Shown here one piece after another: positions 40,708 through 56,339 of a stretch of DNA of 64,000 nucleotides. This DNA comes from Candidatus Sulfopaludibacter sp. SbA3. GTDB taxonomy: Bacteria; Acidobacteriota; Terriglobia; Bryobacterales; Bryobacteraceae. Location: the NCBI GenBank assembly GCA_945890485.1, contig CAMDCN010000009.1, positions 1 through 64,000 of the forward strand, read 5' to 3'. The number at the start of each line of letters is the position of its first letter. Within the stretch, counting starts at the first letter, position 1. Under the pieces are notes generated by a model. The model was not told the origin of the DNA. It saw nothing but the letters and a program-made list of their open reading frames with translations, and did not search any database. The position numbers and the translations under genes were made by a program.

Positions 40708-41841
40708 ATGCCAGCTCATGGTCTGCACTTTCTCTGGCGCAACCCTCGCGTTGCCGACCAGTTCCGCACCGGCGTCTCCCTCCACAGCCATACGATGCAT
40801 TCGGAGGAGAACATGGCCTTCCTCCCTCGCTATGCCCACCATATCCCCGGGGTCAGCCAAACCATCCGCAAGCACGAAGCCACGTTCCGATCCCACTACG
40901 GCAAGGAGCTCGACTACTCCCGCGCCTGGTGGACCCCGCCCCTCCCCGCCCTCGACGCCGAATCTCTCGAACGCCGCCAAATCCAGGACCTCCTCCAGCT
41001 TCCCGCCCTCGTCTCCCTCACCGATCACGATTCCATCACCGCCGGGCTCAACCTTCACGTCATGAGCCCGAGCTCCGTAGCCCCCATCTCCACCGAATGG
41101 ACCGTCCCGCTCGGCGAATCGTTCATCCACCTCGGCATCCACAATCTCCCCGCCGCCGAAGCCACCGCCTGGATGGACCACTTCCGCTCCTGGACCGCCT
41201 CGCCGAATCCCGACCGCCTTGCCGAACTCCTGGCCGCCCTCCACGACATTCCCGAGGTCCTCACCGTCTTCAACCACCCGCTCTGGGACGAAGGCCTCGC
41301 CGGCCGCGACATCCACCGCCAAATGGTCAGCCGCTTCCTCGATCGCTACGGCCGCTGGATCCACGCCCTCGAACTGAACGGCCTCCGCCCCTGGAGCGAG
41401 AACCGCGAAGTGGTCGTCCTCGCCGCCGCCCGCTTGCTCCCCATCATCTCCGGCGGCGACCGCCACGGCCGCGAGCCCAACGCCAACGTCAACCTCACTC
41501 GCGCCGCCTCTTTCTCCGAATTTGTCGCCGAAGTCCGCCAAGATCAGCTCTCCCACGTCCTCTTCCTCCCTCAATACAACGGCAGCCTCAAGCTCCGTTG
41601 CCTTGAAACCATGGCCGACACCCTCCGCGACTACCCCGAATACCCCGGTCGCGTCCAATGGAGCGACCGCATCTTCTTCCGTCAGGACAACGGCGAGGTC
41701 GCGAATTTAACCTCCCTCTGGCGTGGCGCCGGTCCCGGAATTGTTCGAAACTTCGTCACCCTCCTCCGCGTACTCGAATATAGGAGAGTGCGAAATACTC
41801 TCCGCCATGCTCTCGCCGGAAGGCGGGAATACGCGTCGTAG
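40708..41841 (+). CDS. PHP-superfamily metal-dependent phosphoesterase-like protein
   Basis: 377 residues. PHP motifs are spread as usual: motif I GVSLHSHTMHSEE (His26, His28), motif II LVSLTDHDSI (Asp106, His107), a middle FNHPLWD (His), and the late ISGGDRHG (Asp, His). These would bind a two- or three-metal site. The N-terminal FLWRNPRVADQFRTG and a C-terminal helical tail (~330-377) are not typical of histidinol-phosphatase or DNA-polymerase PHP domains. The substrate is unknown. It lies 13 bases before the glycosyltransferase. Confidence 0.8.
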   Translation: MPAHGLHFLWRNPRVADQFRTGVSLHSHTMHSEENMAFLPRYAHHIPGVSQTIRKHEATFRSHYGKELDYSRAWWTPPLPALDAESLERRQIQDLLQLPALVSLTDHDSITAGLNLHVMSPSSVAPISTEWTVPLGESFIHLGIHNLPAAEATAWMDHFRSWTASPNPDRLAELLAALHDIPEVLTVFNHPLWDEGLAGRDIHRQMVSRFLDRYGRWIHALELNGLRPWSENREVVVLAAARLLPIISGGDRHGREPNANVNLTRAASFSEFVAEVRQDQLSHVLFLPQYNGSLKLRCLETMADTLRDYPEYPGRVQWSDRIFFRQDNGEVANLTSLWRGAGPGIVRNFVTLLRVLEYRRVRNTLRHALAGRREYAS

Positions 41842-41854
41842 TCCGAGGAGCTCC

Positions 41855-43066
41855 ATGCGGGTAGCGTTTTTCACTGATTCGTTTCACGAAGTTAACGGGG
41901 TCGCCCACACGAGCCGGATGTTGGCCGCCACGGCTAAACGCCTCGGCGTTCCGTTTCTCGTCGTCTGCGCCGGTGAGCCCGATCCCGCTTCCGGACGCCT
42001 CCAACTCCCCCGCGGCTCCGCCGCCTTCGCCGTCGAGCGCGACCTGTTCTACGATCCCCTCTTCTACCGCCATCGCGCCGAAGCTGAAGCCCGTATCCGC
42101 GAGTTCGCCCCCGATGTCATCCACGTCACCGGCCCCAGCGACGTCGGCACCATCGGCGTCGTCCTCGCCAAAAAGCTCAAAATCCCGCTCGTCGCCAGTT
42201 GGCACACCAACCTACACGAGTACGCTGGCGAACGCCTGCCTGCCTTCGTCCCCAACTTCCTGCGCGAAGCTGCGGTCTCGGCTTCTTTCTGGGCCCTCAG
42301 CCGCTTCTATCAACTCGCCGACGTCGTTATGGCGCCCAATGCCGAACTCCTCGAACTCGTCGAGCAGGCCTCCGGCCGTGCGGGCTTTCTGATGCGCCGC
42401 GGTGTCGATACCAATCTCTTCGATCCGGCTAAGCGGACTCCCGCTCGCCGCCCTCTCCGCATCGGTACGGTAGGCCGCCTGTCGGTCGAAAAGAACATTC
42501 ACTTCCTCACGACGCTCGAACGCTATCTCCTCGCCCAAGGAGTCGACGACTTCCGAATTGTCGTCATCGGCGACGGCGGCGAACGGGCAAAACTCGAACA
42601 GGATCTCCAGCACGGCGAGTTCACTGGCGTCCTTCGCGGCGAGGCTCTCGCCCAGGCCTACGCCGACCTCGATCTCTTCGTGTTCCCCTCGCGCACCGAT
42701 ACCTTCGGCAACGTCGTTCTTGAAGCGTTGGCCTCTGGCGTTCCGGCTGTTGTCACCGCTTCCGGCGGCCCGAAGTTCATCGTCCAGAGCGGCGAAAGCG
42801 GCTTCATCGCCGCCGATGACGAAGCCTTCCTGCGCTGGACGCATTCCTTGGCCACGGACCCGAACCTGCGCCGCCGCATGGCCGTCCAGGCCCGCGAACA
42901 GGCCATCGGGACCACCTGGGAAAAGGTCTTCGAGGAGATCGAGGGTGCTTACCGCGCGGCGATGCTTCGCCGGGCAGCACCACCTCGCACCCGCCGAGTC
43001 CGCGGAACTCATCCGGTCGCGGTTCCCACACCCAAAACCCCGGATTCCGCTGAATCCGCCGGATAA
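41855..43066 (+). CDS. GT4-family glycosyltransferase with antisense-derived C-terminal tail
   Basis: 403 residues from ATG 41855, with GAGGAG four bases upstream. N-terminal Rossmann fold MRVAFFTDSFHEVNGVAHTSRMLA, DVIHVTGPSDVGTIGVVLAKKL and SWHTNLHEYAGERLP resemble GT4 mannosyl- or diacylglycerol-glucosyltransferases; the C-terminal half has the GRLSVEKNIHFLT motif and the donor-site FVFPSRTDTFGNVVLEALASGVPAVVT. The catalytic core ends near residue ~370 (WEKVFEEIEGAY). The last ~33 codons (basic, proline-rich) are encoded opposite a decayed copy of the S24 peptidase 3' end, so the tail is probably recently acquired. It lies just after a PHP-like gene. Acceptor unknown, likely lipid or cell-surface. 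Confidence 0.88.
   Translation: MRVAFFTDSFHEVNGVAHTSRMLAATAKRLGVPFLVVCAGEPDPASGRLQLPRGSAAFAVERDLFYDPLFYRHRAEAEARIREFAPDVIHVTGPSDVGTIGVVLAKKLKIPLVASWHTNLHEYAGERLPAFVPNFLREAAVSASFWALSRFYQLADVVMAPNAELLELVEQASGRAGFLMRRGVDTNLFDPAKRTPARRPLRIGTVGRLSVEKNIHFLTTLERYLLAQGVDDFRIVVIGDGGERAKLEQDLQHGEFTGVLRGEALAQAYADLDLFVFPSRTDTFGNVVLEALASGVPAVVTASGGPKFIVQSGESGFIAADDEAFLRWTHSLATDPNLRRRMAVQAREQAIGTTWEKVFEEIEGAYRAAMLRRAAPPRTRRVRGTHPVAVPTPKTPDSAESAG
42966..43064 (-). pseudogene. Remnant of an S24-peptidase 3' end, antisense to the GT4 gene tail
   Basis: Read on the minus strand this stretch gives IRRIQRNPGFWVWEPRPD then EFRGLGGCEVVLPGE. The intact S24 protein at 43374 ends IRLSPLNPEFSAWELRPE then EFQVLGEFVAVLPGEE. 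The shared N-P-x-F-x-x-W-E-x-R-P-x-E-F-x-x-L-G and V-L-P-G-E residues align without a gap. At the DNA level the 39 bases 43026-43064 and the corresponding copy near 43439 are about 80% identical by eye; identity falls towards the stop. The remnant lacks the stop codon present in the intact gene and no start or catalytic part is recognisable, so it is non-coding as a peptidase. Confidence 0.7.
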
Positions 43067-43373
43067 CGGCAACCCGTCCGCATCCGCTAGCCCGCCGACA
43101 CTGCCGCCGCCCCGTCGGCGGCAACCCGGGATGCCGTCGAATCACGCGGCTGACCCGAACCCGCATGCCACCCCTCGCCCCTCGCCTTTGCTGCCGAACC
43201 CAGCAGATCCATCGGGCCACCGCCCCCACCCCGGCAACGCCGCGTGCACCCGATACTCCTCCGCCAAACACTCCGAAGGCCCAGCAATCATTCGCACGAC
43301 CGTTTCCTTCCGCCCCATTCCCCCCTGTCGCCCGCAAATCCCCAACCCCGTCCAACACCCACCCAACCCAGCC
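43067..43373. other. Intergenic region between GT4 and S24 genes
   Basis: 307 bases, very C-rich on the plus strand, without a supportable gene. Since the start of the region adjoins the S24 remnant, it may hold further decayed S24 sequence; a weak continuation of the similarity is suspected up to about 43120 (an RRQ/KRQ match after a small insertion) but not beyond. No promoter or terminator was recognised. Confidence 0.5.
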
Positions 43374-44171
43374 CTACTCCTCCCCCGGCAATACCGCCAC
43401 AAACTCACCCAACACCTGAAACTCCTCCGGCCGCAGCTCCCACGCCGAAAACTCCGGATTCAGCGGACTCAGCCGAATCAGCGAGTGCTCCCACCCATCC
43501 TCCCCCGTCTGCCGCTTCTCACTCGAATACTCTTTCACCGTCAACTCCGTCGACGGCTCCCCATCGTGAACCCGCTGGATCAGCAAACGCCGCCCCTTCC
43601 GGCTACCGCCCACATGCCGCCGGAAGATGCACCGGCTCCCATCCGGAATCAGCGGCTCCATCGACCGGCCATGCACCGTCACGATGAACATGTCGTTCGA
43701 GATGTGCAGCTCCTCCGGCACCTCCACCCAACCCTCCGGCTCCGGCAACTGCGCCTCGCTCAAGCCTCCCGCCGCCGCCCACGCCCGATACGCCGGCAAA
43801 TGCGTCCTATACTCCAGCACCGCCGGTTCAATCGCCTCCCGGTACAGCCGCCGCAGCCGGGCAGGGAAGTCCGCCACCTGCATCGCCTCCCGCTCCGTAA
43901 TCCGAACCGTATGCGAAAGGTGATCTTCCAAAAACTCCAACACCCGGAGCCCACCCCACTCCCGCCCCTTGGCCGCGATATCCTCTTCGAGCAACGTCAG
44001 GATGTCCGCCTCCTGCCCCGCAAAGCTCTCCCAATCCCGCCGCAGTCGCAAATGCAATTCGTCCGCCTCCACGTCCAGCAGCAGCACCCCCGCCACCTCC
44101 TTCGGACGCCCCGGCAGCGCTACCTCAAGGTAGGAACATTCCCCCGGCCTCGCAACAAGCACCCCTCCCAT
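43374..44171 (-). CDS. S24-family peptidase without DNA-binding domain
   Basis: 265 residues. The C-terminal half is LexA/UmuD-like: NDMFIVTVHGRSMEPLIPDGSRCIFR with nucleophile Ser170, and RRLLIQRV followed by STELTVKEYSSEK with Lys213 as general base. The N-terminal ~150 residues (YLEVALPGRPKEVAGVLLLD, LRLRRDWESF, ITEREAMQVADF) are not a helix-turn-helix, so this is not a classical repressor. Such proteins recur in Acidobacteria; role unknown, possibly damage- or stress-linked self-cleavage. The 3' end has a decayed second copy 310 bases downstream in the GT4 gene. ATG 44171 is the best start. Confidence 0.82.
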   Translation of the reverse strand: MGGVLVARPGECSYLEVALPGRPKEVAGVLLLDVEADELHLRLRRDWESFAGQEADILTLLEEDIAAKGREWGGLRVLEFLEDHLSHTVRITEREAMQVADFPARLRRLYREAIEPAVLEYRTHLPAYRAWAAAGGLSEAQLPEPEGWVEVPEELHISNDMFIVTVHGRSMEPLIPDGSRCIFRRHVGGSRKGRRLLIQRVHDGEPSTELTVKEYSSEKRQTGEDGWEHSLIRLSPLNPEFSAWELRPEEFQVLGEFVAVLPGEE

Positions 44172-44195
44172 AAGCCACTTATCGCCAACCCATCC

Positions 44196-45197
44196 CTACT
44201 TCTTAACATTTACATCCGGCCCATACGGATAATATCCGCGCCGAGACCGCACCTTCACGTTCGGCAACGAAACCTCTACCCGTAGATTCCGGAATACCCG
44301 CCCCGCGTCCTGCACCTGCGGCGTAAACCGCAGCAGATACTGGGTCGTCACCTCACCCGTCGTATTCGCCACCGCCCGGTACATCCCCCGCGCGATCTCG
44401 GAGGCATAGCCGCCGGTCCCCACCTTAATCGCGTAGTTCCCTTCGTCCGAAGGCGTCGACAGATACCCGGAAATGTCCTTGTAGAGCCCCTGCAACGGAT
44501 ACTCCACCCGTCCGCCGGTCTCTTCCGCCAACTGCGTCAGCACCTTCTCGCCCTCGTTGTTAAAGCCGAAAGCGACCGTCGAAACCCCGTAAATCGTCAC
44601 CAGGTTCCGCTGCGCGATCTCCAGTACCTCGTTCAGCGTCTTCTTGCTCGCATTGTCGTGGCCGTCACCAATCACAATAATCACGCGCCGCGGCTCCAAC
44701 GGTTCACCCTTCACTAGGCTCCGCGAAGTACAGGCCATATAAATCGCGTCATACAACGCCGCCCCGCCGCCCGGCTTCAACTTCCGCAGCTTGTCCACGA
44801 TCTTCTGCGAGTCCGTCGTCGTGTTCACCGCCAACTCCGCTTCGTTGGCGTATGTAATCAGGTACCCGCTATACCGCGGGTCGTCCGGCAGCAGTGCCAG
44901 CGCCAACTCAATCGAAGACTCCTGATAGTTCTTCCAGTGCAGGCGGCTCGTGTTCGATAGATCGAGCAAAAAGCCAACCACCACCGGTTGGCTTCGCTCA
45001 CGGCTGAAATAGGTAATCTTCTGCTCTTTGCCTTCGTCGAAAATCTTGAAGTCTTTCTCTTCCAGGTTCGAGACGAACTTCCCGTTCGGGTCGGTCACCG
45101 TCACCGGTACAATCACTTCCGTCGTCGACACCGACAGTGTCGGCTCCTGCGCGAAAGCAAACACGGCGATCAGGCTCAACAGGGTTAGGCGGCGCAT
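44196..45197 (-). CDS. VWFA-related acidobacterial-domain protein
   Basis: 333 residues. Signal peptide RRLTLLSLIAVFAFAQ. The family head is STTEVIVPVTVTDPNGKFVSNLEEKDFKIFDEGKEQKITYF. The VWA fold has a MIDAS-like DLSNTS (in GFLLDLSNTS), LKPGGGAALYDAIYMA and the VIIVIGDGHDNAS strand. A paralogue is at 32107. Presumed periplasmic or surface metal-dependent binding protein. It follows the M48 protease by 16 bases and is probably co-transcribed. Confidence 0.88.
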   Translation of the reverse strand: MRRLTLLSLIAVFAFAQEPTLSVSTTEVIVPVTVTDPNGKFVSNLEEKDFKIFDEGKEQKITYFSRERSQPVVVGFLLDLSNTSRLHWKNYQESSIELALALLPDDPRYSGYLITYANEAELAVNTTTDSQKIVDKLRKLKPGGGAALYDAIYMACTSRSLVKGEPLEPRRVIIVIGDGHDNASKKTLNEVLEIAQRNLVTIYGVSTVAFGFNNEGEKVLTQLAEETGGRVEYPLQGLYKDISGYLSTPSDEGNYAIKVGTGGYASEIARGMYRAVANTTGEVTTQYLLRFTPQVQDAGRVFRNLRVEVSLPNVKVRSRRGYYPYGPDVNVKK

Positions 45198-45213
45198 GAC
45201 TTCAATGATATCG

Positions 45214-46278
45214 CTAGTTGCCGGATGTCGGACGCCGTTTCAGCTTCGGCCGCTCATCTTCATCCGTCTTCGGCGTCTTGCCGTCCTCGTCCGGATCCAC
45301 CGGTCCCGTTGTCGATCCCGGAGCCCGGCGCAACCGCGGCCGGTTCAGATCCTGCTCGTCCACCTTCCGGCGATTGCTCATCGCCAGTAGCCGGTTCTTC
45401 ACGTCGTTGAACTCCGACGTCGTCACCACATACTCGGGCTTCGATTCGAGCAACTCTTGAATGTTCTTCTGCGAATCCTTAATTCGGTCGTCCGTCGGCG
45501 GATGCGAAGAGAAGATCTTCGCCATCGTCCCCGGCTTCTTCTTTTCAAGCGACTGCAGCTTTTCAAAGAAGTCCACGAATGACGTCGGGTCATAGCCCGC
45601 TTTGTACAGATACTGCAACCCTAATAGGTCAGCCTCGCGCTCAAACCCGCGCGAAAACTGCATGAAGCCCATCGGAATCGCTACGCTGGCCGCCTGCCGG
45701 ATGCCGTATCCCGCCCAGCCGCCCATGAAAATCAGCGGAATCGTCGCCAGATTCGCGATCTGCCCGCGCGTGGCCTGCCGCGTACCGTGCCGCGCCGCAA
45801 TGTGTGCAATCTCGTGCGCCATCACCCCGGCCAACTCCGACTCGCTCTCCGCCTTCAAAATCAAACCAGAGTTAACAAAGAAGAAGCCGCCCGGCAGCGC
45901 GAACGCATTCACTTCCTCGGAGTCAATCACTTTGATCGTCACCGGCACCTTGGTGTCCGAGTTCCGGACCAGGTTCTGCCCGACGCGGTTGACATACTCC
46001 GAAATTACCGGGTCGTCGATGACCTTCGCCTGCCGCTCAATCTCCTGGGCGTAACCCTTGCCCATGGCGATCTCTTTCTCGATGGAGTAGAAATTTACGC
46101 CCTTGCCGGCGTCGCGTTCGCCGATCGCCTCAACGTCTTTCTTGCTTCCCTTCTTGATCTTGGTCTCTTTCTTTTCCTTGCCCACCTCGGGCGCGGTTTT
46201 CGCCGGAGCGTCCTGCCCAAAGGCAGAACCGATCAAGATCGCGGCAGCGGTCAGCGAATAAGTTCCAATACGTCGCAT
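45214..46278 (-). CDS. M48-family zinc metalloprotease, periplasmic (BepA/LoiP-like)
   Basis: 354 residues from ATG 46278; upstream in-frame codons give no signal peptide, while this start gives MRRIGTYSLTAAAILIGSAFGQ. A lysine-rich spacer follows. The protease domain includes YVNRVGQNLV, NAFALPGGFFFVNSGLI and the zinc motif H155-E-x-x-H159 in GVMAHEIAHIAARHGTRQ, then FEREADLLGLQYLYKAGYDP with the third ligand Glu, and SSHPPTDDRI. The C-terminus is a proline/arginine-rich tail. It probably degrades or matures misfolded envelope proteins. It heads a two-gene unit with the VWFA gene. Confidence 0.92.
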   Translation of the reverse strand: MRRIGTYSLTAAAILIGSAFGQDAPAKTAPEVGKEKKETKIKKGSKKDVEAIGERDAGKGVNFYSIEKEIAMGKGYAQEIERQAKVIDDPVISEYVNRVGQNLVRNSDTKVPVTIKVIDSEEVNAFALPGGFFFVNSGLILKAESESELAGVMAHEIAHIAARHGTRQATRGQIANLATIPLIFMGGWAGYGIRQAASVAIPMGFMQFSRGFEREADLLGLQYLYKAGYDPTSFVDFFEKLQSLEKKKPGTMAKIFSSHPPTDDRIKDSQKNIQELLESKPEYVVTTSEFNDVKNRLLAMSNRRKVDEQDLNRPRLRRAPGSTTGPVDPDEDGKTPKTDEDERPKLKRRPTSGN

Positions 46279-46333
46279 CGAGGCCCTCCAACAACTGACA
46301 TCAGTATACCCTTGCTGACGCATACTATTGAGG

Positions 46334-53933: not shown

Positions 53934-54320
53934 CTACGCCGCCGGTGGCGGCCGCTCGAATAACTCGTATCGAAGCTGATGGGAAACCGGTGCCGGAGCC
54001 AACCGCTCCTCCACCCAACTCGGCACATCCACCCGTGCGGTAACCATCGGTTCCGGCGCCGTGCCGCTCGCTAACTCCAGCCGTCCAAAAGCCACCGCGG
54101 CGCAACTGCCGCCGCATCCGCTTTTCTGGCTCTGTATGCCGCCCGGCGTACGCTTGCAGCAAGCATGCGCCCTCTTCCGGCTACAGCACTTCTCCACGCA
54201 CTCGCCCGTCTGCCCCAGCGCCATCGCCAAAGGCGCGCCCACCGAGGCTGCATAGCAAAGCAACAGCAGCACGCCCAAGGCGCTCCGCAGTTGGCCGATA
54301 ATGGCTACACCTCTCTGCAC
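53934..54320 (-). CDS. Small secreted cysteine-rich protein
   Basis: 128 residues from GTG 54320, preceded by GGTGG. A hydrophobic N-terminus (LRSALGVLLLLCYAASVGAPLAMAL) is followed by a cysteine cluster (ECVEKCCSRKRAHACCKR; SGCGGSC) and ending FERPPPAA. The pattern of CC pairs after a signal peptide and a proline-rich end resembles small putative copper/metal-handling proteins of Acidobacteria (DUF2946-like), but no family is certain. It lies upstream of cytochrome c' and divergent from the Solibacter-type secreted protein gene. Confidence 0.5.
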   Translation of the reverse strand: MQRGVAIIGQLRSALGVLLLLCYAASVGAPLAMALGQTGECVEKCCSRKRAHACCKRTPGGIQSQKSGCGGSCAAVAFGRLELASGTAPEPMVTARVDVPSWVEERLAPAPVSHQLRYELFERPPPAA

Positions 54321-54380
54321 GGTTCCACCAAAAGGATACCTAATTCCACCAGCACCCGGAGGAACGTCCCGAAATCTCCC

Positions 54381-56339
54381 ATGAAACTCGTCCTCGCCCT
54401 CCTCGCCTCCCTCCTCCCCGCCTTCCCCCAAACCCTCGCCCCCAACGGCATCGTCAACTCCGCCGACTACACCGCCGCCCTCGCCCCCGGCTCCCTCATC
54501 ACCCTCTTCGGCTCCCAACTCTCGAACGTCACCGCCATTGAAGCGGCCGGCCAACCCATCGCCCCCCTCTACGTCTCCGCCACGCAACTGAACGCCCGTC
54601 TCCCCCTCCTGCCCCCCGGCCCTCTCGAACTCCGCCTCCGCACCCCCGCCGGCCTCTCCCCGCCCACCACCATCACCCTCCAACCCGCCGCCCCCCGCTT
54701 CTTCACCCAATCCATGGACGGCCGCGGCGACCCCCTGCTCGTCCACGGCGCCGACTGGTCCCTCGTCAACCCCGCCCGCCCACCCCAACCCCAGGAGATC
54801 CTCATCGCCTTCCTCACCGGCCTCGCCGATGTCCCCACCGAACGCACCTCCGTCACCTTCGGCGGCCAACCCGCCCCCGTCCTCTACGCCGGTCCCGCTC
54901 CCGGCTTCCCCGGCCTCTATCAACTCAATTTCCAGGTCCCCGCCAACGCCCAACTCGCCCCCCTCTTCCTCACCCTCGCCGCCGTCCTCCCCCACGCCCC
55001 CCGCACCGTCGGCGCGCACTCTTTCGCCTCCTCCACCCGCCTCACCGTCGCCTGGTCCCCTTCACCCACCCCCGTCGATCACTACGAAATCCACAACCTC
55101 ACCGTCCGCGCCCCCCATCTCACCGCCGAACTCGCCGACCTCCAGTCCGATACCTCGTACACCTTCCCCATCCAAGCCTGCAACAACGCAACCTGCACCA
55201 CCCAAGCCACCGCCACCGCCCGCACCTCCCCCGAATACTGGCAGCTCCATGGAACCGGCAACACCGTCCCCGGCCTCACCCGCCTCACCACCGACGACAA
55301 CGCCCGCATCAGCGCCACCCGCTTCGGCCCCGAAGCCGGCCCCGTCACCGCCAATCGCATTCAGCTCTATTACGGCCCCGCCGGCTTCCAACGCCAAATC
55401 CTGTCGACCGCCCTCTCCAACCCCGACTCCTACCTCAGCTTCACCTCTTCCCGCGCAACCACCGGCCTCCTCACCCCCAATCCCCCCGCCCCGCTAATCG
55501 AGACCGTAGCTACCGGCCAAGGCGTCCCCCTCGCCGCCGGCCTCGGCGCCAAGGTTCGCCTCTTCTTTGAAGCCCAGGGCACCGACCGCCGCACCCGCAT
55601 CTTCAGCCTCGATAGCGTCGACGGCTACACCGGCCAGGATTTCAACTCCGGCCCCGCCACCACCTGTTCCACCGCCGCCGACTTCTCCCCCGGCGGCGGC
55701 TGCGCTCTCACGGTCGAAGTTGCAGTCGAAGGCGACGCCACCAACGCCAACCCCAAAGTCCTCAACGCCCGCCAACACAAAATCGGCTACCCCACCCAAA
55801 CCGACTGGCGCTGGGACGGCGCCCCCGGAACCTTTATGGTCTTCACCTCCGGCCCCTTGGCTGGCTGCACCAACTCCAATCGCACCCACGGCTACGCCAT
55901 CTGGGACGGAGCCCGCTGGCAGGTCCAGTATCACCCCGACGGCTGCCCCAAGCACTTCGTCAACGTCCAGGCCGCCTTCCCCATGCACCTCGAAGCCGCT
56001 CGCTACAAGCTCTATTACGGCGACACCGCCAACCTGACCGGCCAGCTACCGTCGATGCTTCCATTCCTCGGCCCCAAGCGCCTCCTTTACGCTGACGGAG
56101 CCCGCACCGGCGCGCCCGACCGTGTCGACTTCGAAGACTGGGATCGCCAATCCCAAGCCCGCGACGTCATCTTCCTCTGGCCTAACGGCGAGCGGCTAAA
56201 CGACACCGCCGAAGGCTACATCGACGACTTCCACTTCCTCACCCCCACCAACTCCCTCGACCTCCAAGTGATGTACCTCGTCATCACCGACGGCCGCCTC
56301 GTCCCCACCGGAGCCGCCGCCACCCTCCTCAACCCCTAA
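54381..56339 (+). CDS. Secreted Solibacter-type protein (TIGR03437-like N-terminal domain plus FnIII-like region)
   Basis: 652 residues from ATG 54381 (MKLVLALLASLLPAFPQ). NGIVNSADYTAALAPGSLITLFGSQLSN, LYVSATQLNARLPLLPPG and YQLNFQVP form a TIGR03437 (Solibacter C-terminal domain)-like module, here N-terminal. A fibronectin-III-like segment follows (HYEIHNLTVRAPHLTAELADLQSDTSYTF), then a ~400-residue beta-rich region of unknown fold with FGPEAGPVTANRIQLYYGP and YKLYYGDTANLTGQL. Probably a secreted or surface glycan-binding protein. Convergent with the methyltransferase gene (4-base overlap). Confidence 0.82.
   Translation: MKLVLALLASLLPAFPQTLAPNGIVNSADYTAALAPGSLITLFGSQLSNVTAIEAAGQPIAPLYVSATQLNARLPLLPPGPLELRLRTPAGLSPPTTITLQPAAPRFFTQSMDGRGDPLLVHGADWSLVNPARPPQPQEILIAFLTGLADVPTERTSVTFGGQPAPVLYAGPAPGFPGLYQLNFQVPANAQLAPLFLTLAAVLPHAPRTVGAHSFASSTRLTVAWSPSPTPVDHYEIHNLTVRAPHLTAELADLQSDTSYTFPIQACNNATCTTQATATARTSPEYWQLHGTGNTVPGLTRLTTDDNARISATRFGPEAGPVTANRIQLYYGPAGFQRQILSTALSNPDSYLSFTSSRATTGLLTPNPPAPLIETVATGQGVPLAAGLGAKVRLFFEAQGTDRRTRIFSLDSVDGYTGQDFNSGPATTCSTAADFSPGGGCALTVEVAVEGDATNANPKVLNARQHKIGYPTQTDWRWDGAPGTFMVFTSGPLAGCTNSNRTHGYAIWDGARWQVQYHPDGCPKHFVNVQAAFPMHLEAARYKLYYGDTANLTGQLPSMLPFLGPKRLLYADGARTGAPDRVDFEDWDRQSQARDVIFLWPNGERLNDTAEGYIDDFHFLTPTNSLDLQVMYLVITDGRLVPTGAAATLLNP

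Follow-up and report, generated by a model that had tools for sequence, protein, structure and literature searches.

A glycosyltransferase gene probably overprinted on the antisense strand of an S24 peptidase 3' end and then separated from it by a partial duplication

The junction of two convergent genes in the 64,000-nt window (the whole stretch of DNA analysed here) raises the question of how one gene came to end in sequence that matches, on the opposite strand, the 3' end of its neighbour. The window belongs to a genome of 7.1 Mb in 35 contigs (G000). According to the first-pass annotation, a duplication of the 3' end of an S24 peptidase gene had apparently supplied a new C-terminal tail to an adjacent GT4 glycosyltransferase gene. 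The features concerned are the following:

40708-41841, plus strand: ORF of 377 aa, conserved neighbour upstream of GT4
41855-43066, plus strand: GT4 glycosyltransferase gene, 403 aa, stop codon TAA at 43064-43066 (Pfam and translation)
42960-43064, minus strand: copy A, former S24 3' end, 105 nt including the former stop codon, now the GT4 tail
42963-43066, plus strand: overprinted C-terminal tail of GT4, about 34 residues (M/ILRRAAPP...SAESAG) and the stop
43067-43373, no strand: spacer, 307 nt
43374-43478, minus strand: copy B, S24 3' end with its stop codon, within the intact gene
43374-44171, minus strand: S24-type peptidase gene, 265 aa, intact (Pfam and eight-genome alignment)
44196-45197, minus strand: VWA-domain gene (Pfam VWA, 2e-08), conserved S24 neighbour by synteny

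The GT4 product matches Glyco_trans_1_4 (7.7e-26), Glycos_transf_1 (1.8e-24; 86.7 bits, gathering cut-off 26.4) and Glyco_transf_4 (9.6e-16; 58.7 bits, cut-off 28.5), and the seven junction-genome orthologues share its starting Met in the alignment. The product of 43374-44171 is a predicted S24-type peptidase, with a Peptidase_S24 match over residues 127-258 (1.4e-11, 44.5 bits, gathering cut-off 23.3), so the end of the S24 domain lies in copy B. The 377-aa ORF has no Pfam family at E 0.001. In the window itself the two genes do not overlap, GT4 ending at 43066 and S24 at 43374.

Positions 42967-43064 and 43381-43478 form an ungapped direct repeat of 98 nt with 69 identities (70%), spaced by 414 nt and preserving the S24 reading frame. 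This pair ranks first among all pairs of the window at spacings of 100-700 nt, and the runner-up placements of the copy A 98-mer in the window reach 49/98 on the plus strand and 45/98 on the minus strand. A profile of S24 3' ends, built from eight genomes with copy B included, finds copy A with 47.7 bits (E 2.2e-14), and the minus-strand translation of copy A carries the conserved residues named in the first-pass annotation, whose claim that the S24 3' end has been partly duplicated stands. Homology is wider than 98 nt, extending from 42960 as far as the stop of GT4 (43064-43066) and taking in what used to be the S24 stop codon, a sense codon in copy A. Both stretches are coding and GC-rich, but chance similarity on that account is refuted by the identity count, which exceeds the maximum of ten block-shuffled windows (57/98), by the profile score and by the orthologous single-copy overlap in a relative, G009, described below. 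As a separate observation, the second-best short-range repeat of the window (54389-54486 and 54962-55059, 62/98, shuffled maximum 57) lies inside a 724-aa ORF (54165-56339, plus strand) and is perhaps a repeated domain.

The spacer offers no sign of a larger repeat. The repeat spacing equals 3 x 138, but middle copies in the spacer were rejected, as S24 DNA gives no signal above shuffles in 43065-43373; there is no tandem array of 138-nt size in 42800-43700, and the spacer taken by itself has no DNA match. An S24 protein match reaches 43205, accompanied by a 24.6-bit profile match over the same stretch, and as far as can be told the support for both sits in the 98-nt part. The spacer was also rejected as a mobile or dispersed repeat, having only short weak matches (at most 63 nt, E <=0.01) in 8 of the 18 other genomes of the genus. 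No site resembling an intrinsic terminator was found in 42900-43500, the spacer included, nor was there an unusually stable RNA structure in the two stretches folded. Copy A, for its part, was discarded as a dispersed element since a DNA search of the genome gave no long second match; copies at 70% identity could escape that search, because copy B also goes unreported there. A search of the genome with the S24 protein returns copies A and B alone below E 0.1.

A close S24 orthologue is found in 8 of the 19 genomes of the genus (E <=1e-90, the window's own included), and the same eight are the ones that hold it across the 237 genomes of the family (E <=1e-95). In seven of these (G000, G001, G009, G012, G013, G016 and G017), GT4 and S24 lie next to each other on a single contig in convergent orientation, and in G010 they lie on two contigs that both end in copies of the same repeat. 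Outside the junction genomes, VWA-S24 and ORF-GT4 occur as separate pairs. VWA adjoins S24 in 18 of 19 such S24 loci (L050-L064 and L095-L098, absent at L063), a count in which L052 and L095 are probably one contig, and an orthologue of the 377-aa ORF adjoins GT4 in 7 of 10 GT4 loci (L021-L030, absent at L025, L026 and L029). In G002, G003, G004 and G011, GT4 relatives of 59-61% identity are present with S24 on another contig; in G003 the contigs bearing the GT4 relative and S24 measure 259 and 364 kb. A third gene (45214-46323) stands alongside S24 and VWA in seven loci of the genus, the region corresponding to 43374-46323 of the window.

The eight junctions differ in state, and it is these states that bear on the origin of the tail. 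In G009, a single copy is present and a GT4 of 403 residues overlaps the intact S24 antisense by 107 nt; its tail is equal in length and stop position to that of the window. G012 also has a single copy, with an overlap of 89 nt. In G001, again single-copy, the overlap of 89 nt lies in the GT4 frame as it resumes after an internal deletion of 53 nt, a frameshift that is either decay or an assembly error. The ORF open from the G001 start (L018/L074) enters the S24 antisense in another frame and has 419 residues. G016 and G017 hold one copy each and overlap by 46 nt in a different antisense phase. In the phase common to G000 and G009, GT4 codon positions 1, 2 and 3 face S24 positions 1, 3 and 2.

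The remaining three genomes have extra copies. G000 has two. In G013 (L020/L075), the GT4 stop falls directly after the conserved core, where the tail would start; a decayed S24 3' end follows that stop (E 3.8e-4), and the genes are 99 nt apart, so the overlap is lost here through stop gain as well as duplication. G010 has a tandem array of the S24 3' end, with GT4 ending in the first of three copies (period 131 nt) at the end of contig C235 (L073, 3169-3528), and contig C95 (end of L072) starting with a further copy ahead of the S24 end. Both contigs end inside the array. The two would presumably join there, though there is no exact overlap between their ends, and the C95 copy may be the last C235 copy again (98% over 121 nt). 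Individual junctions may contain assembly errors.

The first-pass annotation was right that the in-frame end of the GT4 gene on the plus strand is antisense-overprinted S24 sequence. Its proposal that the duplication supplied this tail is not supported by the orthologues, since G009 has the same tail antisense to an intact S24 with a single 3' end and no extra copy, and G012, and G001 after its deletion, likewise overlap with one copy. An identical tail in a genome lacking the second copy was the observation that the annotation itself had named as counting against this part. Because the tail is present in single-copy genomes, it most likely arose as GT4 ran into its convergent neighbour; in these genomes it is direct S24 antisense, and the duplication therefore separated the genes and did not supply the tail. 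The description of copy A as a decayed S24 3' end fits its S24 frame and fails for the notion of a newcomer, as copy A is best read as the original shared end.

The distribution of the two tails indicates which frame is the newer. S24 with its conserved tail occurs at loci where GT4 is not adjacent. Beyond the junction genomes, 22 GT4 loci (L021-L042) were compared: two are cut off by the contig end, and the C-termini of the rest are unlike the tail. Three from other members of the genus in which the end is present (L022-L024) stop 385-389 residues past the match start with a different end. BLAST alignments reach GT4 query residues 390-397 at L026, L028, L029 and L032, but a stop codon interrupts three of these alignments, and the fourth contains gaps and is unlike the tail. 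Since the S24 tail is kept without GT4 and the GT4 tail is absent from GT4 relatives, S24 and its tail predate the contact with GT4, the GT4 tail is the newer frame, and GT4 was overprinted on the S24 3' end.

We also looked for extra S24 tails at 25 loci in which S24 has no GT4 neighbour. When each tail was compared by BLAST with the 1000 nt downstream, weak self-matches appeared in 12 (the best at L052, E 0.005, then L058 and L096, both 0.037), with 23 of the 25 rows valid and L050 and L066 carrying no information. A profile search at nine of the 25 (L051-L055, L057, L058, L060 and L062) gave scores no better than shuffles.

From the states of the eight genomes we infer an order of events, and give a probability of roughly 0.8 to the reading in which overprinting of GT4 on the S24 3' end was followed by a duplication of about 105 nt that separated the two genes, with frame-specific divergence. 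GT4 would have become convergent to the VWA-S24 pair within one subclade of a genus of Bryobacteraceae-like Acidobacteria. It would have lost its former end and extended into the S24 3' end on the antisense strand, after which about 90-107 nt would have coded for both proteins (putative dual coding). In the lineage of the window, a local duplication of the shared stretch of about 105 nt, together with the 307-nt spacer, would have left one copy with each gene. Copy A would have stayed with GT4, losing the S24 stop codon and the S24 constraint and drifting mostly at GT4 third positions, and copy B would have stayed with S24, drifting mostly at S24 third positions. With each gene given its own copy, the duplication would have untangled two overlapping reading frames. 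Further, separate duplications probably took place at the same junction in G010, as the tandem array, and in G013, as the relic copy.

It is improbable, to our minds, that the order was the reverse, with an ancestral duplication supplying the GT4 tail and the single-copy overlaps being later collapses by recombination between the copies. Direct repeats are able to collapse, and the tree of S24 and the GT4 core resolves three groups (G000/G001/G009, with G001 and G009 grouped at 67%; G016/G010/G017; and G012/G013), each of which holds one genome with extra copies, three of the eight junction genomes in all. Copy A also has unique sharings, at 43017 with G009, at 42963 with G001 and G009, and at 42987 with G012 and G013, the first two of which fit with kinship. 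Such a history would, however, need losses on the lines to G001, G009, G012, G016 and G017, and the copies themselves speak for separate origins. States that none of the eight S24-linked ends shows number 17 in copy A of G000 and 9 in the first G010 copy, with none in common. The G013 relic is too broken for this count, but aligns best to its own subclade (scores of 50 with G012, 46 with G013, 37 with G001 and 25 with copy A of G000). Among S24-linked ends copy A is nearest to G001 (81/105) and G009 (79/105), closer than to the other subclades. A tree of the 105-nt tail is weak (support 45-100) and leaves out the G013 copy, which is truncated. Since the extra copies of G010 and G013 bear no sign of a shared origin, separation probably happened three times among the eight species.

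Overprinting followed by duplication leaves a signature in the two copies of the window. Ancestral states were taken from G001, G009 and other S24 ends, with 35 sites per codon position. Changes at GT4 codon positions 1, 2 and 3 number 0, 6 and 15 in copy A and 2, 8 and 1 in copy B; GT4 position 2 faces S24 position 3, and vice versa. The copies diverge at complementary codon positions, each at the wobble position of its own gene. With the ancestral base held, zero changes at GT4 position 1 in copy A has P 5e-5, at least 15 at GT4 position 3 has P 0.003, and none of 20,000 permutations attained the excess of copy B at S24 position 3; with the first 7 nt excluded the corresponding values are 5e-5, 0.014 and 0.0006. 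All seven choices of reference place the changes of copy A mostly at GT4 position 3, and the contrast between the copies has P 0.0014-0.05 with six of them (Fisher P 0.0014 with G001) and 0.14 with G016 and G017 together. Of the 35 GT4 third positions of copy A, 15 (0.43) have changed, the third-position difference between G000 and G001 in the GT4 core is 0.35, and the single-copy genomes G001 and G009 differ from each other at 3/35 GT4 third positions.

For the effects on the two proteins, the totals are 22 changes for copy A and 12 for copy B, each counting one site that changed differently in both copies. In copy A, 13 changes are silent in GT4 and alter S24, 6 are silent in S24 and alter GT4, and 3 alter both; in copy B, none is silent in GT4, 9 change GT4 without changing S24, and 3 change both proteins. 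S24-altering changes are depleted in copy B (3 against 9.0 expected) and show no depletion in copy A (16 against 17.4, P 0.29). GT4-altering changes in copy A number 9 against 13.1 expected (P 0.029), a depletion that argues moderately for selection on the GT4 tail.

That the tail is translated, or brings any selective benefit, is presumed, and a serious contender, to which we give somewhat less than an even chance, is that the tail is junk, that is, read-through of decayed S24 sequence to the first stop, of no use and under no selection. This can be reconciled with overprinting followed by duplication. The tail is lost in G013 and has other lengths and phases elsewhere, its sequence is rich in Pro, Arg and Ala, the depletion of amino-acid changes in copy A is weak, and the final 51 nt of the G010 GT4 gene carry 5, 1 and 1 differences from G016 at codon positions 1, 2 and 3, which is not wobble-like. 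Given the loss in the one and this pattern in the other, the tail looks dispensable in G013 and G010. A junk tail is harder to square with the window, where the frame is open with its stop placed as in G009, and where the composition-controlled pattern of copy A places 15 of 21 changes at GT4 position 3 and none at position 1.

Parts of this history have known counterparts. Of the long overlaps studied, convergent ones alone (54 of 178) came out as possibly real in the available text of Palleja et al. 2008 (PMC2478687), and the overlaps here are like the long convergent prokaryotic overlaps of that paper and of a 2007 study (PMC2174442) in exceeding 60 nt and in being a 3' extension of one gene. 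In the portion available, the latter gives (123:132) as the commonest phase of convergent overlaps overall, which is also the GT4:S24 phase of G000 and G009, and has (123:213) gaining frequency above about 50 bp, so that the 89-107 nt overlaps here are off the typical long-overlap phase. The difference is that here an overlap is found in several species and then undone by duplication, a course undescribed in the available parts of either paper. As far as its accessible text goes, PMC4161906 describes overlaps as plastic among close relatives and often lost, proposes an upstream STOP or stop-codon movement as a route and calls for a model of overlap loss. G013, with its upstream STOP, is like this, but G000 has lost the overlap and retained the tail, through copying of the shared stretch. 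Overprinted antisense genes are known from E. coli, among them nog1/citC (PMC4683798) and laoB (PMC5810103), and are similar in having a newer frame antisense to an older gene; here the newer frame lengthens an old gene at its C-terminus and is no new gene, and is predicted from sequence only. Duplication is mentioned in the available text of PMC8227390, PMC8903798 and PMC4683798, though not for separating overlapping genes. Among the matches listed from the open-access full-text literature, no title or abstract opening concerns overlap loss by duplication.

In escape from adaptive conflict by duplication, two functions of one sequence are split between copies. The GT4-S24 case is similar in that functions borne by one sequence are divided between copies, and differs in that two reading frames of a single DNA stretch, and not two activities of one protein, are in conflict. 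It is a variant of known processes, overlap through overprinting and then separation through duplication.

The disappearance of gene overlaps seems little documented, and the GT4-S24 junction would provide a route other than stop-codon movement, with its steps preserved in sister species. We lean, with some reserve, towards the wider view that partial tandem duplication is a recurrent natural means of disentangling antisense-overlapping bacterial genes, with three independent origins among eight sister species at one junction and the best-preserved copies constrained by opposite frames. The case gains weight if this threefold recurrence is true. The codon-position signature, with copy A changed at the GT4 wobble and copy B at the S24 wobble, may serve as a measure of the constraint on each frame during the overlap and as a test of whether the overprinted tail was under selection.
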